Source: Armatimonas rosea
GTDB taxonomy: Bacteria; Armatimonadota; Armatimonadia; Armatimonadales; Armatimonadaceae
NCBI RefSeq assembly: GCF_014202505.1
Contig: NZ_JACHGW010000001.1
Location: 496,001-560,000 of the forward strand
Direction of reading: 5' to 3'
Length of the DNA: 64,000 nucleotides
Under the pieces are notes generated by a model. That model worked only from the letters and a program-made list of their open reading frames with translations, ran no database searches and was not told the origin of the DNA. The translations under genes were made by a program, and so were the position numbers. Positions 6,114 through 19,208 of this stretch are shown here, in pieces (positions within the stretch are counted from its first letter, which is position 1; the number at the start of each line of letters is the position of its first letter).

Positions 6114-8339
6114 ATGAAGAAACAACGCTTTAGCCCCGCGATTGTCCCGGTCGGGGCAGGAAGCTACACGACCGTGCTACCCCCCGGTGCCAAGGAGCCG
6201 GGAGTGGCTCCCTTTGTGACGGCCTCGGTCAAGCGCCCCGTGCCCACCAACGACTGGTGGAGCTCGCTGGCGTTTCTCCCGTTCTCCAACCAGATGTTCC
6301 CCCACCCGCTCGGTCTCCAGGCGGGGGCAAGGGGTCTGCGCCTCTACTACCCCGGAGTCGGCTACACCGCCAACCCCGAGGGGATCTTCACGGCGATCCA
6401 GCCCGAGCCGCATGACCTCACGATCGGCCACTCCGCACACCCCACCTTCCCCGATGCCCGTGTCGAGAGCTGGAGCGACTGGTTTGTGACGGCGGCCTTT
6501 GGCCCCCAGCTCCACCTGACCTTTGGCCACGGCTCCCCCTTTGTCTACGGCAAGCTCGAGGGCGGCGACCCGACCTTTCGCTTTGCGAGCCCCCCGACGG
6601 TCTTTGCGGGCGACAGCAAGAGCGCCGTGCTGGGGGTGCGTGTCCAGGGCCGCGCCTACGCCCTCTTTGGCCCAAGTGGCTGTGTCTGGGAGGGGGTGGG
6701 GACGGCGCAGCTTACCTGCAAGAGCGGGGGCAAGTCGTACTTCTCGGTGGCGCTGCTTCCTGATAGCAACCCCGAGACACTAGCACTCTTTGCGAGATAC
6801 GCGCACAACCATGTCACGGACTCAAAGGCGTCTTGGAGCTACGACGAGAAGGCGAGCAAGGTCACGACACGCTATACCTTGACCGTGAAGTCCTACGAGG
6901 GGGGGGCGCCGGGGACGCTCTACGCGCTCCTGCCGCACCAGTACCAGCGGAGCCGCGATCCCCTCACGGGCCATACCTACCAGTGCGCCCGCGGTGTCCT
7001 CAAGCTGGCAGCCGGAACGGGCTTTACCACGACCGTGCCCTTCCACGGGGTCCTGCCCCAGCTCCCGGATCTAGGGACTTACGACAAGGCGACACTCACG
7101 AAGTACCTCGACACCGATGCGGCCGGCTACAAGCCCGAGCTGGTCGATACCTACTGGACCGGCAAGTTCCTCGGAAAGCTCGCCACCCTCGCCGCCCTCG
7201 CCGATGCCACGGGCGATCAGGCGGCCAACCAGCAGTTTAAGCCCCGGCTCAAGGCGCTCCTGGAGGACTACTTTACGGCAAGACCGGGCAAGACCAAGGG
7301 GCTGTTCTACTACAACAAGCCCTGGGGGACCCTGATCGGCTACCCGGCGTCGTATGGCAGCGATGAGGCGCTCAACGACCATCATTTCCACTACGGCTAC
7401 TTTATCCGCGCCGCCGCCGAGCTGGCGCGCCAGGAGCCGCAGTGGGCCGCGCCCGAGAGGTGGGGCGGGATGGTCAAGCTCCTTATCCGCGACTGCGCCA
7501 ACCCGGACCGCGACGATCCCCTGTTCCCCTTCTTGCGCAACTTCGACCTCTACGAGGGCCACACCTGGGCCGATGGCAAGGGCGACTTCGCCGATGGCAA
7601 TAATAATGAGTCGTCGTCGGAGGCCATGAACGCCTGGACCGGGATGATCCTCTGGGGGGAGCTCATGGGCGATAAGAAGCTCCGCGACACGGGGATCTTT
7701 CTCTACGTGACAGAGAAGGACGCGATCGATACCTACTGGTTCGATGTCAACAAGCTCTACCCCAAGGCCTTCACCCGCTCGCTGGCGTCGATGGTCTGGG
7801 GGGCGAAGGCGGTCTTTGCCACCTGGTTCTCCGGCGACCCGATCCACATGCACGGTATCAACCTGCTCCCGGTGCAGAGCGGCTCGCTCTACCTGGGGAC
7901 CCACCCCACCTACATCAAGGAGAACCTGACAAGCCTCGCCGCCGAGCGTGTCGCCCACGATAAGAAAGACCCCAAGTTCGATCCGAGCAAGCCCCCGCGC
8001 ACGGGCAAGAACTGGGGCGGCTGGGGCGATGTGATCCTGATGTACCAGGCCCTCGCCGACCCCGCGGCGGCGCTGGCAAGCTGCAACTTCGAGACCCAGG
8101 AGATCGAGCAGGGCAACTCCCGCGCCAACTTCTACCACTGGGTGCATTTCCTCAACAAGGTCGGCCAGGTGGAGACGAGCGTGACTGCCGACACGCCGCT
8201 CTATGGCGTCTTCAAGAAAGGCACCCAGCGCACCTACGTGGTCTACAGCCCCACGGCGCAGCCGCGAAAAATCACCTTCTCCGATGGTAAGGTTGTCACC
8301 ACGAAGAAAGCGGGGCTGACTATCTCCAGTCGCCCATGA
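6114..8339 (+). CDS. Glycoside hydrolase family 81 (endo-beta-1,3-glucanase)
   Basis: 741 aa. The N-terminal domain has VPTNDWWSSLAFLPFSNQ, the usual GH81 entry motif. The catalytic region has DHHFHYGYFIRAAAEL, which contains the likely catalytic aspartate, and then FDLYEGHTWADG with DGNNNESSSEAMNAW, which carries the likely catalytic glutamates. The family hydrolyses laminarin-type beta-1,3-glucan. An in-frame TGA at 6105-6107 blocks any N-terminal extension, so there is no signal peptide. Like the GH44 neighbour it appears cytoplasmic unless another route exports it. Its last 20 bases overlap the convergent TPR-CHAT gene, and the last codons read the antisense of that gene's conserved C-terminus. 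Confidence 0.88.
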   Translation: MKKQRFSPAIVPVGAGSYTTVLPPGAKEPGVAPFVTASVKRPVPTNDWWSSLAFLPFSNQMFPHPLGLQAGARGLRLYYPGVGYTANPEGIFTAIQPEPHDLTIGHSAHPTFPDARVESWSDWFVTAAFGPQLHLTFGHGSPFVYGKLEGGDPTFRFASPPTVFAGDSKSAVLGVRVQGRAYALFGPSGCVWEGVGTAQLTCKSGGKSYFSVALLPDSNPETLALFARYAHNHVTDSKASWSYDEKASKVTTRYTLTVKSYEGGAPGTLYALLPHQYQRSRDPLTGHTYQCARGVLKLAAGTGFTTTVPFHGVLPQLPDLGTYDKATLTKYLDTDAAGYKPELVDTYWTGKFLGKLATLAALADATGDQAANQQFKPRLKALLEDYFTARPGKTKGLFYYNKPWGTLIGYPASYGSDEALNDHHFHYGYFIRAAAELARQEPQWAAPERWGGMVKLLIRDCANPDRDDPLFPFLRNFDLYEGHTWADGKGDFADGNNNESSSEAMNAWTGMILWGELMGDKKLRDTGIFLYVTEKDAIDTYWFDVNKLYPKAFTRSLASMVWGAKAVFATWFSGDPIHMHGINLLPVQSGSLYLGTHPTYIKENLTSLAAERVAHDKKDPKFDPSKPPRTGKNWGGWGDVILMYQALADPAAALASCNFETQEIEQGNSRANFYHWVHFLNKVGQVETSVTADTPLYGVFKKGTQRTYVVYSPTAQPRKITFSDGKVVTTKKAGLTISSRP

Positions 8340-11300
8340 GGACAAAGGGTGCCCAGTAGTACGGGTGTGCGTGCTTTTGGCTCTGCAGGAGCGTGAGCGC
8401 CGCCTGCCGCAATGCCGCACCCTTGCCCTGTTTCTTGGTGGCTAAGTTGCTGTAGAATCCCGCCATGAGTGTCGCCGTGCTGGCATCGTCCACGGCCCAC
8501 TGGCTCACCACTTGTGTCGGGCAGCCTGCGACAAAGAGCGCCCAGGTGAGGCCAATCACGCCATCCCCGGTTCGCTGAACGCCCCGCGCTGTGTTACACG
8601 CGGACAACACAACCATTTCCGCTGACAAGTCCAAGTCGAAGATCTCCCGTGCTGTGAGAAAGCCATCGTCCTTGCTGCCCGAGCTCGGTTGTGCCAGCAC
8701 GAGGGAAGAGAGAAGTGGGCTTGCATCATTGAAGAAGCCGTGCGTCGCAAAGTGCAAGTACTTGTACTTGCTGGCTTCCAGCTTTGCTCTGCCTTCTTGC
8801 GCCGCGCTGCCGGTCATGAGAGTTGCGGTTGGGAAGAGCTTCTTGAGGGCATCGGCCTCTCGTTGTGTGCCCGGAAGTGCGACAATGGCCTTGCCCCGTG
8901 AGACGCTATCGAAAGCACGGGAGGGAGAGTCAATGGGTCTGCTTGGTGTGTCGATGGGCCGGGAGGGAGTATCGATAGGCCGCGACGGTGTGTCGATGGG
9001 CCGACTTGGCGTATCTATCGGCCGGGAGGGGGTGTCGATCGGACGGCTTGGTGTATCAATGGGACGGCTTGGCGTGTCGATAGGCCTTTGTCCGGGTAGA
9101 TTGTCCAGATCGCCGAAGCGCTTGGTTGAGCCGAAGTCTGGGTTGGCGATTGCGAGTAGGGTTTGCGTGGGTTGCTTTCGATCTGCCTTCACCGTCAGCG
9201 CGGCTTGGACGCCGGTTGCGGAGTAGGCGTAGGAAATCTCGTAGCGCTGTGCGAGGAACTGGCCGTTCATGAGCAAGGCTTGAAACGGGACATCCCAGAG
9301 CGCTCCGTCGGGGCAGATGACGAGGCGCTTGACGCCCGTGAGCTGCTTTGCAGCCGGGGCGAGCAGGAGCTTGTGGAGCTCGGTGGCGAGCGGTTTGTAG
9401 TCCTTGCGCGGGTCGGCACAGGCGGAGCGAAGGGCCGTCGCCTTACTGACCAAGCTCTTGTAGACAATGGGGAGGATAAATGCGTTTACTCCTTTTGAGG
9501 TGACAACGAAGAGGGCCAGCTTCTCTTGACTCAGCACAATGTAGTCCAGAAGTGCCGTGTCGACCGGAAGGAGTTTGGCAATATCGGCGAGGTTTGCCGT
9601 CTTGGCGGCACGTTTTTGGGCGAACTCGGGATGACGGGAGTAGAGTGTGTCAGTGAGGGTTTGGAGGGCACGCTCGGTTTTGATCAGCTCTTCTTTCAGT
9701 GCGGCGTAGCGCTTCTTCGCCCCGACCTCGTTCTCTACCCCTTCTCTCACCATCTGAGCGTTGATAAAGTTAGCTTGTTGTTTGAGATCCTGCTCTTGTG
9801 CCCGCTCCTCGGGAGTTAGTGAGCCACTTAGCTCCACCCGGCCCGCCGCCAGTAGGTCTAGCAAACCCCGCGCCTTGGTCTTCTGTGCCAGTGCAAAGGC
9901 CTCCTCCCCTTGGCGAAGGTGCAAGAGTAGCTCCAAGTAGTGGTAGTAGGCGGTAAGGTTTGCCGTGAGGAGGGCGCTCTTGGCCTCCGTGTAGCCACCG
10001 AGCTGGGTGCGCTGGCTCTCGTAGAAGGCCACGGCCTTCTGGAAGTAGGGGAGGGCTTGGGAGTACTTTCGTGAGTTGCGCAAGACAATCCCGAGAGTAT
10101 AGAGCACATCTGCCTCTCCTTTTCGGCTGCCCACGGACTGATAGAGGTTACGTGCCTGCTCCAGGAGAGTGAGAGCCTTCTCCACTTGTTTTGTATTGGC
10201 CGCAACCGCGCCCAGGCTAGCGAGGACATCAGCCTCAAGCGCCGTGCGACCACTTGCTCGAAGGAGCCGAAGGGCGCTCTCGAAGTAGGTGCGGGCTTTG
10301 GCAAAGTTGGCTTGTGCGTGGTAGGTCGCCCCGATATTCCGAAGCGTATTGCCCTCGCCGTTTTTGCTACCCATCGCTCGGTAGACCGTGAGGGCTTTCT
10401 CGTAGGTGCGGAGGGCAGCGGCGTGTTCCCCGAGGGCCTGATGGAGCGTCCCGAGCGAGTTGAGGGTGTTGGCCTCGCCACTGCGTTGCTGGATGGCCTG
10501 ATAGAGCGTGAGGGCTTGCCCAAAGAACTCTTTTGCCTTAGCGGGCTGGCTGAGTCGCAGGTAGACATTGCCGATTCCTTGGACAGTGTTGGCCTCGCCG
10601 CTCTTGTCCCCGATCCCTCGGTGAAGCAGGAGGGACTGCTGGAAGTTGCTGAGGGCCTGTGGGAACTGGCCAAGGGCGCTCTGGAGGGTAGCGAGGCCAT
10701 GGAGGGACGCCGCCTCGCCGTAGAGGTTGCTACGGGTACGGCAGAGCACCAGCGCTTTCTCGAACGCCTCTAGCGCCTTCAAGGGCTGGCCTGCTTCCGA
10801 GTAGATCTCGCCCAAGAGCCTCTGGATATCCCCCTCACTCTCGGTGTCGCCGATAGATTTCTTCAGGGCAATGGTCTGCTCCAGATACTTCAGTGCCTTC
10901 GCGGGCTCCCCAAGGGTGGAGTAGAGATTGCTGATATTGCCCAGCGTGTTGGCCTCGAAGTTCTTGTTGCCCGTCGCTTGGTGGACAGGCAGGGCTTGCA
11001 GGTAGGTTTCCAACGCCTTGTCCGGCTTTCCAAGCTGGGTATAGACAATCCCGATATTGGTGAGGGTGGCCCCTTCGCCATTCTTATTACCGAGGTCGCG
11101 GAAGAGGGGGAGAACCTGCTGGTAGTACGCCAGCGCCTTGGGAAAAAGCCCCTGGTTGAGTGAGAGGATCCCCAGATTTCCGAGCGTGTTGGCCTCGCCT
11201 GCTCGGTCTTTGCGTTCTTGGTAGAGCGTGAGCGCTTTCTGGTAGTTGTCCTCCGCCTCTTGAGGACGGCCTTGGTTCATCAGGACAAAGCCAAGATAGC

Positions 11301-11472
11301 TGAGGGTGACCACCTCGCTGGAGCGATCTTTTTGGGAGCGTGCTTGGGTGAGAGCACTCTGCAAGAGGCGTAGTGCCTCAGGGAAGTTGCGCTGGCGCTG
11401 GGCATCCAGGGCGCGATCCAGCAAGGCCTGGACCTCGGGGTTGGGTTTTGTCTGTGCTGGGATGGAAGTCAT
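8320..11472 (-). CDS. TPR-CHAT caspase-like protease, paralogue 2, with RPIDTPS repeat tract
   Basis: 1050 aa. Residues from about 10 to 500 are tandem tetratricopeptide repeats with the pattern GEANTLGNLG and similar. A coiled region follows, then a C-terminal CHAT domain. The catalytic dyad is visible as His911 in HFATHG and Cys959 in VLSACNTARG. Between IANPDFGSTKRFG and LPGTQREAD, residues 796-858 are nine 7-residue units: seven RPIDTPS, one RPIDSPS and one degenerate RAFDSVS. CHAT proteins are caspase-like proteases, often used in bacterial immunity or programmed death; the TPR part is expected to sense or bind a partner. It lies 34 bases after its paralogue and has its own TATAAT 10 bases before the ATG. 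No target is evident. Confidence 0.85.
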   Translation of the reverse strand: MTSIPAQTKPNPEVQALLDRALDAQRQRNFPEALRLLQSALTQARSQKDRSSEVVTLSYLGFVLMNQGRPQEAEDNYQKALTLYQERKDRAGEANTLGNLGILSLNQGLFPKALAYYQQVLPLFRDLGNKNGEGATLTNIGIVYTQLGKPDKALETYLQALPVHQATGNKNFEANTLGNISNLYSTLGEPAKALKYLEQTIALKKSIGDTESEGDIQRLLGEIYSEAGQPLKALEAFEKALVLCRTRSNLYGEAASLHGLATLQSALGQFPQALSNFQQSLLLHRGIGDKSGEANTVQGIGNVYLRLSQPAKAKEFFGQALTLYQAIQQRSGEANTLNSLGTLHQALGEHAAALRTYEKALTVYRAMGSKNGEGNTLRNIGATYHAQANFAKARTYFESALRLLRASGRTALEADVLASLGAVAANTKQVEKALTLLEQARNLYQSVGSRKGEADVLYTLGIVLRNSRKYSQALPYFQKAVAFYESQRTQLGGYTEAKSALLTANLTAYYHYLELLLHLRQGEEAFALAQKTKARGLLDLLAAGRVELSGSLTPEERAQEQDLKQQANFINAQMVREGVENEVGAKKRYAALKEELIKTERALQTLTDTLYSRHPEFAQKRAAKTANLADIAKLLPVDTALLDYIVLSQEKLALFVVTSKGVNAFILPIVYKSLVSKATALRSACADPRKDYKPLATELHKLLLAPAAKQLTGVKRLVICPDGALWDVPFQALLMNGQFLAQRYEISYAYSATGVQAALTVKADRKQPTQTLLAIANPDFGSTKRFGDLDNLPGQRPIDTPSRPIDTPSRPIDTPSRPIDTPSRPIDTPSRPIDTPSRPIDTPSRPIDSPSRAFDSVSRGKAIVALPGTQREADALKKLFPTATLMTGSAAQEGRAKLEASKYKYLHFATHGFFNDASPLLSSLVLAQPSSGSKDDGFLTAREIFDLDLSAEMVVLSACNTARGVQRTGDGVIGLTWALFVAGCPTQVVSQWAVDDASTATLMAGFYSNLATKKQGKGAALRQAALTLLQSQKHAHPYYWAPFVLMGDWR
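8899..9087 (-). repeat. In-frame 21-bp tandem repeats encoding RPID[T/S]PS (paralogue 2)
   Basis: Nine consecutive 21-base units on the minus strand. Eight encode RPIDTPS or RPIDSPS and the last encodes RAFDSVS. Codon usage varies between units (for example Arg as AGG, CGT, CGG or AGA), so the peptide is conserved better than the DNA. The tract is inserted in the CHAT domain just before the conserved LPGT. Confidence 0.95.
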
Positions 11473-11482
11473 CTCAAGCGGA

Positions 11483-11488
11483 ATTATA
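11483..11488 (-). promoter_or_regulatory. Perfect -10 box (TATAAT) for TPR-CHAT paralogue 2
   Basis: TATAAT on the minus strand ends 10 bases before the ATG at 11472, within the 34-base gap after paralogue 1. The transcript would be leaderless or nearly so. There is no convincing -35 box. Confidence 0.55.
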
Positions 11489-11506
11489 ACATGGGGGTGC
11501 TAACGG

Positions 11507-14413
11507 CTATCTCCAGTCGCCCATGAGGACAAAGGGTGCCCAGTAGTAGGGATGCGCGTGCTTTGGATTCTGCAGGAGCGCGAGCGATGCCTGCCGCAAT
11601 GCCGCCCCCTTGCCCTGTTTCTTGGTGGCTAAGTTGCCGTAGAATCCCGCCATGAGTGTCGCTGTGCTGGCATCGTCCACGGCCCACTGGCTCACGACTT
11701 GGGTCGGGCAGCCTGCGACAAAGAGCGCCCAGGTGAGGCCAATCACGCCATCCCCGGTTCGCTGAACGCCCCGCGCCGTGTTACACGCGGACAACACAAC
11801 CATTTCCGCTGACAAGTCCAAGTCGAAGATCTCCCGTGCTGTGAGAAAGCCATCGTCTTTGCTGCCCGCGCTTGGCTGTGCCAGCACGAGGGAAGAGAGC
11901 AAGGGAGAGGCATCGTTGAAGAAGCCGTGGGTCGCAAAGTGCAGAAAACGGAATTTCGTTGCTTCTGCCTTTGCGGTGCTTTCCTGTGCCGCGCTGCCCG
12001 TCATCAGGGTTGCGCTGGGAAAGAGCCGCTTGAGTGCATCGGCTTCGCGCTGTGTGCCCGGAAGTGCGACAATGGCCTTGCCCCGTGAGACGATGTCAAA
12101 AGCGCGTGATGGAGAGTCAATGGGACGAGAGGGTGAATCGATAGGCCTAGACGGTGAATCGATAGGCCTAGACGGTGTATCAATAGGTCTGCTCGGCGTA
12201 TCAATGGGCCGTGATGGTGTGTCGATGGGGCGACTCGGAGTATCAATGGGACGTTGCCCTGGCAGGTTATCGAGGTCGCCGAAGCGCTTGGTTGAGCCGA
12301 AGTCTGGGTTTGCGATTGCGAGTAGGGTTTGCGTGGGTTGCTTGCGTTTGGCTTTAGTGGTCAGTGCGGCCTGTGCGCCTGTTGCGGAGTAGGCGTAGGA
12401 AATCTCGTAGCGCTGTGCGAGGAACTGGCCTCCGGTGAGCAGAGCTTGAAACGGGACATCCCAGAGCGCTCCGTCGGGGCAGATGACGAGGCGCTTGACG
12501 CCCGTGAGCTGCTTTGCTGCCGGAGTAAGCAGGAGCTTGTGAAGCTCCGTGGCGAGCGGTTTGTAGTCCTTGCGCGGGTCGGCGCAGGCGGCGCGAAATG
12601 TTGCGGCTTGGGTGACGAGCTTGGGGTAGCTAAGCGGCAGGGTGAGTGCCTTGACCCCACGGTGCGTCGCGACAAAGAGCGCCAGTGTCTTTTCGGAGAG
12701 CACGACATACTCCAGTAAGGCCGTGTCGGGGGGGAGGAGCGTGGCGAGCCCGGACAGAGTGACGGTCTTGGCGGCCTGAGCCTGCGCAAGCCGCGGATGG
12801 GTGGCGTAGAGGGTATCGGTGAGGGTCTGGAGCTGGCTCTCGGTCTTTTGGAGCTCCTGCTTGAGCGCGGCGTAGCGCTGCTTCGCGCCCACCTCGTTCT
12901 CGACTCCCTCCTTGACCATCTGCTGGTTCAGCGTATCCGCTCTCTCGCGGAGGGCCTGGAGTTTTTGGCGCTCGTCGGGCTGGAGCTCGGCGCTCAGATC
13001 GACTCGTCCCGCGGCCATGAGGTCGAGGAGCGAGCGTGCCTTGGTCTGCTGGGCGACCTCGAAGGCACGCGCCTCCTTGCCCTGCGCCAGCAGGAGCTGC
13101 AGGTAGCGGTAGTAGATCTCCAGGGTGCCTGCCAGGACGGTCGACTTGGCCTCGGTCAGCCCCCCGAGCCGGGTGCGGAGCCGCTCTAGCGACTCGATGG
13201 CCTGGGCGTAGTGCGCCTCCGCGCTGGCGGGACGCTTCAGCTGCTCGTCGGTGAGGGCGAGCTGGCTGAGGGCGCTGATCTCCCCCGTACGCTCGCCTGT
13301 CTCACGGTGGATCGCAAGCGCTTGTTGGAGGTAGGGGAGGGCCTTTTGGGGCTGCTGGAGCGCACTATAGGCCTTGCCGACACTGGTGAGGGTCTTCCCC
13401 TCCCCGCTACGGTAGCGGAGGGCCTGAAAGAGTGTGAGCGCCTGCTGGAAGGCGGCGAGTGCCTTCTGCGGCTGGCCCTGCTTCAGGTAGCTATCTGCCT
13501 GGTTGTGGAGGACGGTCGCCTCCCCTACCTTGTTGCCCAGCGCCCGGTAGAGCGTCCCCGCTTGCCCAAAGAGCTCCTGCGCTCGCTGAGGCTGGCCCTG
13601 CGTCTTGTGGAGAATGGCCATGTTGTTGAGGACATTGGCCTCGTTGTGCTTCTCCCCGGCCGCACGAAACAGGGGGAGGGCACGCTGGTAGAACTCCAGG
13701 GCCTTCTGTGGCTGCCCGAGCATGTCGTAGAGGTTACCGAGGTTGTTGGCGGTCTGGGCCAGTGTTGTCTTGTTTTTGAGCGTCTCCAGAGTGGGCAGGG
13801 CCTTGAGGTAGAACTCCAGGGCCTTCTGCGGCTGGCTCAGTGCCTGGTAGACATCGCCCAGCTTGCTCAGAATCTCCGCCTCCCGGGCCGTGTCGCCGAG
13901 GGCGCGGGTGGGGGGCAGGGACTGCTCCAGGTACTCCAGCGCCTTGAGCGGCTGGCCGATCATGTTCGCCAGCACCCCAAGGTTGCTCAGGGCCATCGCC
14001 TCCCCCTTGGCATCCTTGTTGGCGCGGTGGACACGCAGGGCACCCTCAAAGGACTCTTGGGACTTTTTCGGATCGTTCTGCTCGACGTAGAGCAGGCCCA
14101 GGAAGTTGAGGCTCACGCCCTCTTGCCGCAGGGAGCCTAGCTCGTGGTAGAGGGGGATGGCCTGCTGGTAGTACTCGATCGCCTTCGCGGTCTGGCCCTG
14201 GCGGCGGTAGATTCCGGCGGTGATGTAGAGGCTACCGGCCTCCCCGATCCGGTCCTTAAGCATCCGCGCTTTTTCGATGGCTTGGGAGTAGAGCTGTAGG
14301 GCTTTCTCGGGGTCTCCCGCGGAGTTCGCTTGCTGCGCCTGCCGCACAAGCTCCATGACCTCAGGAGCTGCCTTCTCCAAGACTTGCTGCATGCTATTGC
14401 GATTAAGAGTCAT
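11507..14413 (-). CDS. TPR-CHAT caspase-like protease, paralogue 1, with RPIDTPS repeat tract
   Basis: 968 aa with the same plan as its downstream paralogue. TPRs run to about residue 440 (units such as GQPQKALEFYQRALPL), then a helical linker, then a CHAT domain with His829 in HFATHG and Cys877 in VLSACNTARG. The repeat tract at residues 721-776 has four RPIDTPS, three RPIDSPS and one RAFDIVS. The last roughly 250 residues are almost identical to the paralogue, whereas the TPR halves are clearly divergent, so the genes are a tandem duplication with a homogenised effector part. It begins 32 bases after the cyclase-STAND gene, with a TATCAT box 6 bases before its ATG. Confidence 0.85.
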   Translation of the reverse strand: MTLNRNSMQQVLEKAAPEVMELVRQAQQANSAGDPEKALQLYSQAIEKARMLKDRIGEAGSLYITAGIYRRQGQTAKAIEYYQQAIPLYHELGSLRQEGVSLNFLGLLYVEQNDPKKSQESFEGALRVHRANKDAKGEAMALSNLGVLANMIGQPLKALEYLEQSLPPTRALGDTAREAEILSKLGDVYQALSQPQKALEFYLKALPTLETLKNKTTLAQTANNLGNLYDMLGQPQKALEFYQRALPLFRAAGEKHNEANVLNNMAILHKTQGQPQRAQELFGQAGTLYRALGNKVGEATVLHNQADSYLKQGQPQKALAAFQQALTLFQALRYRSGEGKTLTSVGKAYSALQQPQKALPYLQQALAIHRETGERTGEISALSQLALTDEQLKRPASAEAHYAQAIESLERLRTRLGGLTEAKSTVLAGTLEIYYRYLQLLLAQGKEARAFEVAQQTKARSLLDLMAAGRVDLSAELQPDERQKLQALRERADTLNQQMVKEGVENEVGAKQRYAALKQELQKTESQLQTLTDTLYATHPRLAQAQAAKTVTLSGLATLLPPDTALLEYVVLSEKTLALFVATHRGVKALTLPLSYPKLVTQAATFRAACADPRKDYKPLATELHKLLLTPAAKQLTGVKRLVICPDGALWDVPFQALLTGGQFLAQRYEISYAYSATGAQAALTTKAKRKQPTQTLLAIANPDFGSTKRFGDLDNLPGQRPIDTPSRPIDTPSRPIDTPSRPIDTPSRPIDSPSRPIDSPSRPIDSPSRAFDIVSRGKAIVALPGTQREADALKRLFPSATLMTGSAAQESTAKAEATKFRFLHFATHGFFNDASPLLSSLVLAQPSAGSKDDGFLTAREIFDLDLSAEMVVLSACNTARGVQRTGDGVIGLTWALFVAGCPTQVVSQWAVDDASTATLMAGFYGNLATKKQGKGAALRQASLALLQNPKHAHPYYWAPFVLMGDWR
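12086..12253 (-). repeat. In-frame 21-bp tandem repeats encoding RPID[T/S]PS (paralogue 1)
   Basis: Eight consecutive 21-base units on the minus strand: four RPIDTPS, three RPIDSPS and a final RAFDIVS. It sits at the same place in the CHAT domain as in the paralogue. Unit number differs between the two genes (eight versus nine), as expected for a tract that expands and contracts. Confidence 0.95.
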
Positions 14414-14445: not shown

Positions 14446-17139
14446 CTATGAACTATGCGACAGTGGGGCTGTGGAGTTCTCCTCGCTGAGGGCCCAGCCG
14501 CGCTGCGCCTCGGGGGAGAGGAGGCTTGCCTCGCGGCGGAGCGTGGCGAGCTCGGAGCTGGGGAGGGTGCCCGCGGTGGCGGCGCGGGTGAGCCACGCCT
14601 CGATCTCTTGGGCGAGGGGGGAGCGTACTTGTTCCAGGAGTAGGATTGAGCCAAGATAGAGCCGGACTGCCTTGCGGAAGTCCCGCTGGCTCTCCGCCAC
14701 CTCCCCGAGGTTGGCGAGCATAAAGCCCAGCCCGAGGGTATTGCGAAGAGACTCGTAGTGGGGGACCGCCTCGCGGTAGTAGCGATTGGCCTTCTCCCAC
14801 TCCTGGCGCTCAAAGGCCAGCACCCCAAGGTTATTGAGCGTCTCTGCGAGGCCCCGGCGGTCCTGGAGCGCGTGGCGGAGCCGGAGGGCCTCGGTGAGGT
14901 GTTGCTCGGCTTGGGTAGCCCGCGCCTCCCAGTCCTCGGGGGCACCGGAGCGGTCGCGGCGCAGGGTCACCCCCAGGTTGTTCTGGACAATCGCCACCCC
15001 CACTTGATCGCCGGCGGCCTCGAAGCTTGCCAGAGCCGCCAGGAACTGCGTGTGCGCGTCTGGGTAGTCCCGCTCCTGCATCGCGGCCTGGCCCAGGAGG
15101 TTCTGGGCGTGTGCCACCCCGAGCGCGTCTTGGAGGCGCGTGCTGATCGCCAGCGCCTCGTGAATGCACCGGCGGGTGCCGTCGGGCTGGTTAAAGTCCG
15201 CGTGGAGGCCCGCGCGCTCCAGGAGGAGCTTGGCACGCAGGGGAGCGGGTACGGCGGCCCCTAGCCCGAGCTCGATCGCCTCGACCGCCTCGTGGAGGAA
15301 GCCGTGGCGCTGGTGCAGGATGCCATTGGCAAGGGCCAGCTCCCCCAGGAGAAGGCTATCCCCCAGAGTCTGAGCCGCCTCCAGCGCGACCCGGAGGTTG
15401 GCTCCCTCTTTGGTGAGGGCTTCGAGTGCCTCGGCCTCTTCGGCGTCTCGGAGCTTCTGGAGCTGCACCTGCGCCAGACTCAGGAAGAACGCCGCATGCC
15501 GCTGAGAAGTCGCCTGGGCATCGTCGGGGTGTGCCGCCAGCTTCTCGGTCGCATACTCTCGGACCGTCTCCGAGAGCCGGTAGCGGGTATGGGCCTCCGC
15601 CTGGTCCGCGACCGCCAGGTTCTTATCGACCAGCGACGTGAGGAGATCCAGCACCTCCCAGTCCTCGATAGCATCGCCTGCACAGACCGCCTCCGCCGCG
15701 GGGAGTGTCCAGCCCCCGCTAAAGACAGAGAGGCGGTGTAGGAGCGCCTTTTCTTGGTCGTTGAGCAGGTCGTAGCTCCAGTCGATCAGGGCGCGCAGGG
15801 TCTGCTGGCGGGGTAGTGCGGTCCGCGAGCCCCCCGTGAGCAGGCGGAAGCGCTGGTTGAGCTTGGCATCGATCTCCTCCACCGAGAGTGAGCGCAGGCG
15901 TGCCGCGGAGAGCTCCAGCGCCAGGGGGATGCCGTCGAGGCGGCAGCAGAGCGAGGCGAGCGCCTTGGCGTTCTGCGCCGTGATCTGAAAGTCCGGGCGT
16001 GTGAGCCGGGCACGGTCCAGGAAGAGCTGCACGGCCTCAAACTGTGCGAGTGCCTCCGGGGTCTGGGGGCGGTGGCGGTCCGGGAGCGAGAGCGAGGGGA
16101 CGCGGTAGGTCTGCTCTCCCAGCACCCCGAGGGCCTCGCGGCTGCTGGCCAGGATCTGGACACCGGCACACTGGCGCACCAGGGTCTCCGCCAGCTTCGC
16201 GGTGGCATCGATCAAGTGCTCACAGTTATCAAGGAGTATAAGGAGCTGTTTCTCTTTGAGCGCTATGGTCAGGGCGAGCTCCAGCGGGAGGTCGGATTGC
16301 TCCTTTGCGCCGATCGTGCTTGCGAGCGCTTGGACCACCTGGCAGGCGGTGTCGAGCGGGGCGAGCTCCACGAACCAGATGCCATCGGGGAAGCGCTCTA
16401 GAAGCTCCGCGGCGACCTGAAGCGCGAGGCGGGTCTTGCCGGTTCCACCCGCGCCCGTGAGGGTTAGGAGGCGTGTCTGCTGGAGGAGCTCGCGCACCGC
16501 GACCGTCTCACGCTCTCGCCCGATAAACTGGGTCACCTGCTGGGGGAGGTTGTTGAGGTGGGTGGAGAGCGACTTGATCGGGGGGAAGCTCGCCGTGAGC
16601 TCCGGGTGCTCCAGCTGGTAGACATGCTCGGGGCTGGTGAGGTCCTTGAGCTGGTGGATACCCAGGTCACGGAGCGACTCGGGGCCGGTGAGGGTGCCTA
16701 GGACCAGCTGTGCGGTGCTCTGGGAGAGGAGGGTCTGGCCTCCGTGGGCGGTGGAGAGGAGCCGCGCGATCCGGTTGAGGGGCGGGCCAAAGTAGTCGTT
16801 GTCCCGGCTCTCGACCGCGCCCGTGTGGAGCGCCATCCGCACCTTGAGCGGGGTGCTCTCCGGCCACGGCTCGGCCCCGAGGACCTGCTGTGCCTTGGAC
16901 GCGGTCAGGACAGCACGCGTGGCATCGTCGAAGGCGACGCAGAAGGCATCCCCGACTGTCTTGAAGAGGTACCCGCCTCCCTCTTGGACGATCCCACGCA
17001 GGAGGGTGTCGTGGCGCGCGAGCGCGGCCCCCATCTCCTGGGGGAAGGCCTCCCAGAGGCGGGTACTGCCCTCGATATCGGTGAAGAGAAAGGTCAGTGT
17101 CCCTGAGGAAAACGGCGGGGGATCACCAGGCTGGCTCAT
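14446..17139 (-). CDS. Class III nucleotidyl cyclase-STAND ATPase-TPR protein
   Basis: 897 aa. Residues 1-180 are a class III adenylate/guanylate cyclase domain with a complete set of expected residues: Asp21 in FTDIEGST and Asp64 in KTVGDAF for metal, Lys60 for the base, and Asn122 and Arg126 in LNRIAR for the transition state. Next is an NB-ARC/AAA-type STAND ATPase with P-loop GAGGTGKT and Walker B LLILLDNCEH. The C-terminal 300 residues are TPR-like helices. Such proteins act as switches in which a ligand bound to the repeats drives ATPase-dependent assembly; here the output would be cyclic nucleotide synthesis. It heads a run with the two TPR-CHAT proteases. A TATAAT 10 bases before the ATG separates it transcriptionally from the MFS gene. 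It lacks membrane segments. Confidence 0.85.
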   Translation of the reverse strand: MSQPGDPPPFSSGTLTFLFTDIEGSTRLWEAFPQEMGAALARHDTLLRGIVQEGGGYLFKTVGDAFCVAFDDATRAVLTASKAQQVLGAEPWPESTPLKVRMALHTGAVESRDNDYFGPPLNRIARLLSTAHGGQTLLSQSTAQLVLGTLTGPESLRDLGIHQLKDLTSPEHVYQLEHPELTASFPPIKSLSTHLNNLPQQVTQFIGRERETVAVRELLQQTRLLTLTGAGGTGKTRLALQVAAELLERFPDGIWFVELAPLDTACQVVQALASTIGAKEQSDLPLELALTIALKEKQLLILLDNCEHLIDATAKLAETLVRQCAGVQILASSREALGVLGEQTYRVPSLSLPDRHRPQTPEALAQFEAVQLFLDRARLTRPDFQITAQNAKALASLCCRLDGIPLALELSAARLRSLSVEEIDAKLNQRFRLLTGGSRTALPRQQTLRALIDWSYDLLNDQEKALLHRLSVFSGGWTLPAAEAVCAGDAIEDWEVLDLLTSLVDKNLAVADQAEAHTRYRLSETVREYATEKLAAHPDDAQATSQRHAAFFLSLAQVQLQKLRDAEEAEALEALTKEGANLRVALEAAQTLGDSLLLGELALANGILHQRHGFLHEAVEAIELGLGAAVPAPLRAKLLLERAGLHADFNQPDGTRRCIHEALAISTRLQDALGVAHAQNLLGQAAMQERDYPDAHTQFLAALASFEAAGDQVGVAIVQNNLGVTLRRDRSGAPEDWEARATQAEQHLTEALRLRHALQDRRGLAETLNNLGVLAFERQEWEKANRYYREAVPHYESLRNTLGLGFMLANLGEVAESQRDFRKAVRLYLGSILLLEQVRSPLAQEIEAWLTRAATAGTLPSSELATLRREASLLSPEAQRGWALSEENSTAPLSHSS

Positions 17140-17157: not shown

Positions 17158-18486
17158 CTATTCGTCGAGCGTTTCCAGCGAGCGGCCCTTGGTCTCGACA
17201 ATAAAAGGGAGCAAGAATAGCCCGACAAGGGGGACGCAGCCGACAATCACGAGGGCGCGGAAGGCGGCATCCAGCCCCTGCTGTGCGATCACCCCGACCA
17301 GAAACGGCCCGGCGGCGGCGATAATGCGCCCGATATTGTAGGTAAAGCCTGCGCCCGTGCCCCGCAGGCGGGTCGGGAAGAGCTCGGGGAGGTAGTAGGT
17401 AAAGCTGCCGAAAACGCCAAAGACGGTCAGGCCGATCGGGAAGTAGCCGTAGAGCCGGGTCGCGCCGGTCCAGGGGAAGGCAAAGGTGCCGATAATGCTG
17501 GCCGCGCCCAAGACAAAGTAGATCGCAAACATCGCCCGGCGGCCCATGAGCTTGGCGACCGGCACGGTGAGCAGGGTCCCGATCAGCCCGCCGGCGCAGA
17601 AGCTCACCAGGGCGATCGACTTCCAGCTCTCGACCAGCGCCTGGGTGGCGGGCTTGTCGAGGCCCTGGAGCTTGGCCTGTGCTCCCGCCATCTGCGAGGC
17701 GATCACCGATGCAAACGTGTTACAGCTCCACCAGGTGAGGAGCGCGACCAGGGCCATCGCCATCCCGCCGAGGGTCGCGCGGCGCAGCTCGGGGGTGAAG
17801 AGCTCGCGAATCGTGGGGCTCTTCTTCTCGCCCGCCACTTCCTGCCACTTCTCGGGCTCCTTGATGAACATGCGGATCACAAAGGCGACAATCGCAGGCA
17901 ACAAACCGCAGGCAAAGACCCAGCGCCAGCTGGTCTCGGGGCTGTCTTTGAGCAGGCCCCCAACAATATAGAAGCGCATGGCATCCGCGGCGAGCAGGCC
18001 CAGGGGTGCCGATGTGTAGAGCAGCGCTCCGGCCTCGACACGGCGCTTCTCGGGGACCACCTCGGCCACCATCGCCGCACCCGCCGCCCACTCGCCGCCG
18101 ATCCCAAAGGCCACAAAGACCCGGCAGAGGAGCAGCACCCAGATATTGGGTGCCAGCGCGCACATCGCCGTCCCCACGGAGTAGAGCAGCATGGTGAGGA
18201 GTAGCGTCTTCGTGCGCCCGAGCTTGTCGGTGATGCGCCCAAAGAGCACGCCGCCAATCGCCCAGAAGATCAGCAGGAGCGAGCCCATGATCCCGTTCCA
18301 GTACGGCACCGACGCCTTGGCCTCCGGGCTGCCAATGGCTTGGCCGAGCAGCACCGGGATCGCCTTATCCGCCACGAGGGCGTAGAGCAGCCCATCAAAG
18401 ATATCAAAGCCCCACCCCAGCCACGCGGCAAAGAGCACGGTCCACTGGTAGCCGTTCATGTCCAGAAAACGCCGTCGTCCATCCAT
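17158..18486 (-). CDS. MFS transporter (sugar/organic acid type)
   Basis: About 442 aa with 12 predicted membrane helices. It has the MFS motif GRITDKLGRTKT between helices 2 and 3 and the N-terminal GWGFDIFDGLLYAL, which resembles sialate, aromatic-acid or metabolite-proton symporters. The substrate cannot be read from sequence. I chose the ATG at 18486 (MDGRRRFLDMNGYQW) because TATAAT ends 7 bases before it; an ATG at 18495 overlaps that box and the frame further upstream is Pro/Arg-rich and not protein-like. It follows the phosphatase gene, whose stop overlaps the promoter, and precedes the cyclase-STAND gene by 18 bases. Confidence 0.8.
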   Translation of the reverse strand: MDGRRRFLDMNGYQWTVLFAAWLGWGFDIFDGLLYALVADKAIPVLLGQAIGSPEAKASVPYWNGIMGSLLLIFWAIGGVLFGRITDKLGRTKTLLLTMLLYSVGTAMCALAPNIWVLLLCRVFVAFGIGGEWAAGAAMVAEVVPEKRRVEAGALLYTSAPLGLLAADAMRFYIVGGLLKDSPETSWRWVFACGLLPAIVAFVIRMFIKEPEKWQEVAGEKKSPTIRELFTPELRRATLGGMAMALVALLTWWSCNTFASVIASQMAGAQAKLQGLDKPATQALVESWKSIALVSFCAGGLIGTLLTVPVAKLMGRRAMFAIYFVLGAASIIGTFAFPWTGATRLYGYFPIGLTVFGVFGSFTYYLPELFPTRLRGTGAGFTYNIGRIIAAAGPFLVGVIAQQGLDAAFRALVIVGCVPLVGLFLLPFIVETKGRSLETLDE

Positions 18487-18493
18487 GCCGGGC

Positions 18494-18499
18494 ATTATA
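18494..18499 (-). promoter_or_regulatory. Perfect -10 box (TATAAT) for MFS gene
   Basis: TATAAT on the minus strand ends 7 bases before the ATG at 18486 and overlaps the stop of the phosphatase gene. It supports the shorter MFS start and a leaderless message. Confidence 0.55.
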
Positions 18500-19208
18500 G
18501 CGGAAAATCGCGGGTGGTCTGGTCGGGGAGGGCTTGGTAGATGTGGCGCTCGGGCATTTGCAGGGCGGTGAGGGGGCCGCTGCGGCACGCACCCGTGTCG
18601 ATCCCTATCTGCCATGCGGAGACATCAGGCTCCGTTGTCGGGGTGTGGCCGTGGATCGTGAGTCGCCCCGAGCGGTCGGCGTACTCTAAAAACTCCCAGC
18701 GAATCCAGAGGAGAGTATCAGGGTGAGTGTCTTCGACGGGCTTGCCGCGCTCGGTGCCGGCGTGCACCCACACGCAGTGCGCCAGCTCGGGGAAGCGCTC
18801 GGTGGGGGCTTTCCAGTAGGTCTTGAGGAGCGAGAAGTAGCGGGCCAGGTCATCGGGGCACTCGCGCGCAAAGCAGGCGGGGGGATCGCGCTCCCAGCTG
18901 TGCATGGTCTCGATCCCCCCGTTGCGAAACCAGTCGTAGTCATCGTAGGCGATGCGGCAGGGATGCTTTCCGGTGAGGTAGGCCGACGCCATGTCCTCGT
19001 GGTTGCCCCAGAGCAAGACCGTGCGCTCCGGTGCGGCATCGTACTCGGCCAGCAGGCGGTTCACCACCCCGCGTGAGTCCGGGCCACGGTCGATCGCATC
19101 GCCCAGAAAGACTGTCACGTCCTCCGGCCCCCGTGGGAGCGCCGCCAGGAGCGTGTCCAGCCGCGCGGCCATCCCATGAATATCGCCAATTGCCCAGACC
19201 GATGCCAT
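18495..19208 (-). CDS. PPP-family metallophosphoesterase (Ser/Thr phosphatase or Ap4A hydrolase-like)
   Basis: 237 aa with the three diagnostic metal motifs in order: GDIHG (residues 8-12), GDAIDRGPDS (about 36-45) and GNHED (about 69-73), plus a later GHTPTTEP histidine. The family includes bacterial protein phosphatases and diadenosine tetraphosphate hydrolases; sequence alone does not separate these. No signal peptide, so it is cytoplasmic. It starts 14 bases after the CHAD gene, with TATACT 5 bases before the ATG, and its end abuts the MFS gene. Confidence 0.85.
   Translation of the reverse strand: MASVWAIGDIHGMAARLDTLLAALPRGPEDVTVFLGDAIDRGPDSRGVVNRLLAEYDAAPERTVLLWGNHEDMASAYLTGKHPCRIAYDDYDWFRNGGIETMHSWERDPPACFARECPDDLARYFSLLKTYWKAPTERFPELAHCVWVHAGTERGKPVEDTHPDTLLWIRWEFLEYADRSGRLTIHGHTPTTEPDVSAWQIGIDTGACRSGPLTALQMPERHIYQALPDQTTRDFPL

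Follow-up and report, generated by a model that had tools for sequence, protein, structure and literature searches.

A selected heptapeptide array in the L1 loop of CHAT proteases from Armatimonadota: a candidate docking strip

Separase and caspases have bacterial relatives in the CHAT proteases, some of which, in the phylum Armatimonadota, carry, in a loop next to the catalytic cleft, a tandem array of seven-residue units that are individually under purifying selection, to judge from their codons. The array was followed up from P2, one of two neighbouring paralogues encoded in a 64,000-nucleotide stretch of Armatimonas rosea DNA (the window, to whose numbering the coordinates below refer). 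We read it as a disordered multivalent docking strip beside the active site, a reading to which we give a probability of about 0.4 and which draws on the position and period of the array, the selection on each unit, the recurrence in the phylum, the uniformity of units within one protein, and the gene neighbourhood. A broader proposal is put forward more tentatively: the L1 array could be an undescribed build of caspase-like protease that evolved at least twice, with a period of seven and a tie to cyclase/STAND genes, serving exported and cytosolic CHATs as a multivalent recruitment strip or a tunable gate.

The array and its place in the caspase-like fold

P2 (8320..11472, minus strand; 1050 aa) combines TPR repeats with a CHAT caspase-like protease domain. 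Its membership of the CHAT family PF12770 follows from a Pfam match over the full domain (aa 694-1048, E 6.2e-78, profile positions 2-289 of 289; several TPR families are matched as well), from a His-Cys dyad, and from the caspase-like alpha/beta fold of its model; protease activity is predicted. His911 in HFATHG (8740..8742, minus strand) and Cys959 in LSACNT (8596..8598, minus strand) stand in invariant columns of a 45-sequence alignment, and homology with the dyad of CHAT, separase, and caspases predicts their catalytic roles. The P2 gene and a convergent ORF (6114..8339) overlap at their 3′ ends by 20 nt (window 8320-8339).

The P2 array (8899..9087, minus strand; aa 796-858) consists of nine in-frame 21-base units, namely seven RPIDTPS, one RPIDSPS, and a final RAFDSVS, which is degenerate and better seen as a cap. 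The loop is bounded on its N-terminal side by IANPDFG (9130..9150, minus strand) at the end of beta-1, and on its C-terminal side by LPGT (8866..8877, minus strand) at the start of alpha-1. Between IANPDFG and the array lie 14 non-repeat residues, STKRFGDLDNLPGQ, and seven more (RGKAIVA) connect the array with LPGT. AlphaFold2, run on P2 residues 560-1050 with 45 sequences, gave a model with a mean pLDDT of 84.6 and a pTM of 0.81, in which residues about 787-860, i.e., the tract and its flanks, have a pLDDT below 50. This disordered stretch sits between a strand (model residues 211-219) and a helix (model residues 308-320). In caspase anatomy, L1 is the loop that joins beta-1 to alpha-1 and forms one wall of the substrate groove; in the model, it is this position, beside the catalytic cleft, that the array occupies. 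Foldseek matched the model to the Craspase TPR-CHAT/Csx29, the CHAT of DdvA, separase, gingipain RgpB, and SAVED-CHAT, and weakly to caspase-8.

A sequence-only reading of the window had already reported a flexible tract of nine 21-base units at 8899-9087, between IANPDFG and LPGT of the CHAT fold and next to the active-site cleft. Coordinates and unit count proved exact on direct reading, the flanking motifs are as described, and the model agrees with both the flexibility and, together with the Foldseek matches, the placement. That reading had reported the tract for the second paralogue, but it is not special to one protein: three paralogues of this genome and other families of the phylum have such arrays.

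The P2 array is not a chance pattern, since TRF picks it up independently and the eight CHATs with RP-type arrays (units beginning with Arg-Pro) top the ranking of tandem peptides among 580 long ORFs from 1.06 Mb of phylum DNA. In that set, a period-7 array of similar score occurs in just one other protein, a subtilase. As a sequence query against the PDB, the tract gave no useful match, its single hit having an E-value of 0.35. Heptads of the coiled-coil type, with hydrophobic a and d positions, were rejected for this tract because each unit contains two prolines and the model has no helix there.

Eight CHAT loci are present in the A. rosea genome. P1 (11507..14413, minus strand; 968 aa; Pfam CHAT E 1.4e-78), likewise a TPR and CHAT protease, bears an array at 12086..12253 (minus strand; direct reading and TRF) of four RPIDTPS, three RPIDSPS, and a RAFDIVS cap. 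In a pairwise alignment, the CHAT halves of P1 and P2 are nearly identical and the TPR halves are about 40-60% identical in DNA (window 8320-14413). The contrast suggests that the protease half has undergone recombination or gene conversion. The next most related CHAT of the genome, P3 (G000:C1:320615-321538), has four RPIIAPE units in the same L1 loop.

Selection on the units and recurrence in the phylum

Within the arrays, the peptide is kept and the codons vary, as the sequence-only reading had put it, and the counts now bear this out. In 63% of unit pairs, the third codon positions are different; in P1 and P2 together, the differing codon pairs are 479 synonymous and 44 non-synonymous ones, all 44 being T/S exchanges at position 5. 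The within-array pS and pN are 0.81 and 0.105 for P2, 0.79 and 0.131 for P1, and 0.51 and 0.000 for P3. The corresponding values elsewhere in the phylum are 0.77/0.123 (G133), 0.70/0.011 (G074), 0.64/0.098 (G201), 0.53/0.160 (G105), and 0.28/0.044 (G134), so that the eight RP arrays together span pS 0.28-0.81 and pN 0-0.16, with a single identical pair among 163 unit pairs. When units were compared with 2000 random draws from local codon usage, those of P2 shared codons at 0.31 against 0.40 +/- 0.05 for the draws (nominal P 0.025, one of eight tests). Sharing was no higher than chance in six of the eight arrays (P1, P2, P3, G133, G074, and G201); the units of G105 and G134 retain some DNA similarity. 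Since the codons are as divergent as random draws while the P2 peptide changes only from T to S, purifying selection is indicated for each array unit. By the same codon evidence, the units of most arrays have lost the DNA memory of their common origin and the peptide has stayed. A DNA-level element was rejected, inter-unit codon sharing being at the random level in most arrays.

Slippage is a real source of tandem arrays, and the units of G134 are still alike in DNA, as a functionless neutral expansion would leave them. This explanation was nevertheless rejected on the codon data and can hardly be credited: silent sites are saturated while the peptide is identical, identical unit pairs are down to 1 of 163, and the array recurs in several families.

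A scan of 291 Armatimonadota genomes found RPIDTPS, RPIDQPS, and RPIDLPS units with RAIDSLS caps in G105, G133, and G134 (family f14), four RPFDTPS units in G074 (family f24), and ten units of the RPLTAGE, RPITAGE, or RPITAGA kind in G201 (family f30). A profile-based survey covered 80 CHAT genes from the phylum, whose loops split cleanly by tandem score, 13 scoring at least 7 and 67 at most 4. All 13 arrays have period 7, and they span two separate CHAT clades. Eight of them fall in one clade of 12. The other five, of the RG type, form a separate clade (100/99) and have units of the form RG[x]Y[MI]P[IV] in the same L1 loop. A plain spacer or entropic linker, of which only length and flexibility matter and whose sequence is incidental, would fit the disorder of the P2 tract, and array-less CHATs do have L1 loops that vary in sequence and range in length from about 9 to 110 residues, the loop of the array-less sister G004 being a Gly/Pro-rich filler. 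However, selection is strong at every residue but position 5 and RPIDxPS recurs between families of the phylum, and a mere spacer is accordingly quite improbable.

The RG-type CHATs (L225, L217, L211, L174, and L298) bear a second array, RGxYMPI, in a helical linker, which AlphaFold2 places at the tip of a helical hairpin outside the L1 loop and predicts to be disordered like the L1 one. Both arrays of one RG protein share lineage-specific residues (YIPI in G049, YMPI elsewhere), with a pS between them of 0.44-0.85. Such covariation, together with uniform units, a strict period of seven, and the precedent of one CHAT protease known as a filament (SAVED-CHAT, 8tl0), would suit a zipper in which the arrays of adjacent protomers, or both arrays of an RG protein, pair and hold an active oligomer together. 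But AlphaFold2 gives no confident pairing even with both arrays in one chain, the RP type has one array per chain, and one clade contains both 4-unit and 10-unit arrays; we consider pairing of this kind unlikely.

In the tree, P1 and P2 of the window group with the array-less G004 and G061 (96/94), and therefore array loss or repeated gain has occurred. These closest array-less sisters have a functional-looking CHAT, and the array is thus dispensable for the fold. The sequence-only reading had pointed to loop length in homologues as a check and to absence from close relatives, coupled with no effect on activity, as a ground for doubt: the length is highly variable outside the arrays, and the absence is real in G004 and G061 but does not extend to other families of the phylum, where the array is present.

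Ahead of LPGT, many array-less CHATs have residues that approximate R-x-[ILV]-D-L, for instance TRAIDFENRIFPALPGT in L064 and RRSVDMRALSFPPLPGT in L100. On inspection, the caps RAFDSVS and RAIDSLS resemble this native element, and for this reason it is proposed that the heptad may have arisen by its duplication. The heptad array was found in none of 97 CHATs from one cross-phylum scan. The corresponding loop region in a CHAT-encoding locus of Cyanothece sp. SIO2G6 (L060) contains a tandem repeat of 13 residues, RETSIRPPFSRPE. In G087 (C646), a subtilase-like exported protease (L253:4011-5426, minus strand) is encoded directly downstream of a TPR-CHAT gene and carries, between prodomain and catalytic domain, four QFIFTAD heptads with synonymous codon differences; this array was not found in 25 other genomes. 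In G268, a 2099-aa frame (L298:6041-12337, minus strand) seems to fuse the CHAT with its partner, but such a fusion was rejected, since a frame break close to the end of the CHAT leads into an unrelated gene.

Gene neighbourhood and the proposed docking

Upstream of P1 lies the gene of an 897-aa protein with a class III nucleotidyl cyclase, an NB-ARC/STAND NTPase, and TPR repeats (14446..17139, minus strand; Pfam Guanylate_cyc E 6.6e-12, NB-ARC, AAA_22, TPR_12), a proposed operon partner. On the minus strand, cyclase-STAND-TPR is followed after 32 nt by P1 and, after another gap of 34 nt, by P2. A transporter-like ORF on the same strand (17158-18615) ends 18 nt ahead of the cyclase-STAND start and may belong to the same transcript. 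The pair of STAND and array CHAT is found also in G105, G133, G134, and G201; in G074, a STAND beside the array CHAT is cut by the contig end, and the neighbour of P3 is an NB-ARC/TPR protein with, by eye, a SARP-like N-terminus. For the RG type, a cyclase-AAA-TPR gene lies directly downstream in G255 and G049. Altogether, a cyclase or STAND neighbour occurs at 10 of 11 testable array loci versus 2 of 47 others (Fisher 1.3e-8 if the loci were independent, which they are not). The tree yields only two independent contrasts. In neither does the partner run opposite to the array, and with the RP type taken alone both are concordant; at G061 C625, the upstream flank falls outside the contig. Of the 291 genomes of the phylum, 125 encode cyclase-STAND proteins, which are thus common, but the three foreign proteins that match the window STAND best, all above any own-genome paralogue, are STANDs beside array CHATs in G134, G133, and G105, which speaks for co-inheritance of the pairs.

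A second protein with the motif was not found near the array CHAT genes. PADLOC returned general TPR models and weak partial matches only, with no defence-specific model among them. A RiPP link was rejected, the matches to HaaT, FxSxx, and TOMM kinase/cyclase models being far below cut-off and confined to the shared TPR, NTPase, and cyclase parts; for RPIIAPE, a graspetide-like core is excluded because the unit lacks Thr, Ser, and Lys.

The sequence-only reading had offered the tract as either a self-cleavage or a docking site, citing the preference of caspase-like enzymes for Asp and Arg. Cleavage within loops is how caspase-type zymogens become active, the array loop is exposed, flexible, and near the active site, and the cap units (RAFD, SRG) have an Arg that is not followed by Pro, so that cutting at Asp or Arg might activate the protease or free a piece of it. 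Yet RPIIAPE, RPITAGE, and RGxYMPI have no Asp, Pro follows the array Arg in all RP arrays, and a single site would do. As Asp is not conserved across the array types and the RP-type Arg precedes Pro, this half of the proposal is very unlikely, and docking becomes the better-supported half.

In the proposed docking, a partner or substrate would have one kind of binding pocket, and each heptad would offer it the same small epitope (Arg1, Pro/Gly2, in RP arrays a hydrophobic residue 3, and Pro/Gly6). With eight or nine copies next to the active site, the array would gain avidity for a multivalent ligand, such as an oligomeric substrate, an activator, or a surface polymer, and the ligand held at the cleft would set when and what the protease cuts. 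Units within one protein keep the same variant (RPIDTPS, RPFDTPS, RPIIAPE, or RPITAGE) with no homogenisation of the DNA, as is expected if all of them face the same pocket. The residues shared by the two arrays of an RG protein, in spite of their divergent silent sites, count in favour of docking too. We infer the docking step itself, and both the partner and its motif-binding domain are putative. A single ligand common to all array types is unlikely because the motif residues differ strongly between types. By eye, the CHATs of G105, G133, G134, G201, G074, G255, and G268 have signal-peptide-like N-termini, which P1, P2, and P3 do not. With several relatives beginning in this way, the cytosolic STAND itself is unlikely to be the ligand, and direct docking onto that partner is doubtful; the STAND/cyclase gene would more likely encode an upstream sensor or controller of the module.

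The same loop could instead act within the molecule, as a gate or pseudosubstrate that folds over the cleft, fills S1 with an uncut Arg-Pro, and is released by a signal or a competing ligand. Arg-Pro bonds are poorly cut by Arg-specific proteases, in the RP type the array Arg is always followed by Pro, and the array lies in L1, beside the cleft. Prokaryotic orthocaspases are described as cleaving after positively charged residues (PMC6426788). Against a gate, one pseudosubstrate site is enough, which leaves eight or nine selected copies unexplained, the Arg-Gly of RG-type arrays should be cleavable, and the second RG array sits at a helical hairpin tip away from L1. A gate is therefore rather unlikely, and the docking strip remains our preferred reading. 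An array of motifs in L1 would offer a direct handle on the control and substrate choice of CHAT proteases, and the cyclase/STAND link suggests a sensor-protease module outside CRISPR.

Comparison with known systems

The CHAT family is already known; what appears to be new is a selected heptad array in its L1 loop. A literature search on CHAT proteins with repeats, STAND, Armatimonadota, and DdvA found no description of such a tract, in line with the sequence-only reading, which knew of none in described CHAT proteins.

The best fold match in the PDB is the Craspase TPR-CHAT/Csx29 of the type III-E CRISPR-associated system (8eey, 7y84, 8d9f; Foldseek E 3e-13 to 1e-10, sequence profile E 3e-10), which, like P2, combines TPR and CHAT and has a His-Cys dyad. 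The two are about 12% identical, the partner of Craspase is a CRISPR effector (Cas7-11/gRAMP) whereas the P2 neighbour is a cyclase/STAND NTPase gene, with cas genes not noticed around it, and in the literature found no heptad array is reported for Craspase. The CHAT of the transmembrane anti-sigma factor DdvA (8rot, 8rw5; Foldseek E 2e-10) belongs to a bacterial membrane/envelope signalling protein and differs from P2 in its anti-sigma architecture.

Separase (ctSPD, 5fby; human separase, 9hn5) has a caspase-like, CHAT-related fold like that of P2 (Foldseek E 5e-10 to 4e-9). It cuts after Arg in a known motif, and we know of no array at its L1-equivalent loop. Separase is inhibited by securin (PMC9729208).

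In its manner of working, the P2 array may have an analogue in the C-terminal domain of RNA polymerase II, both being built of disordered, selected heptads, with no homology implied. The YSPTSPS heptads of the latter are disordered, Ser/Thr/Pro-rich, selected seven-residue units engaged in multivalent binding. The consensus of P2 is RPIDxPS or its relatives and not YSPTSPS, and it is placed in the loop of a protease rather than in the tail of a polymerase.
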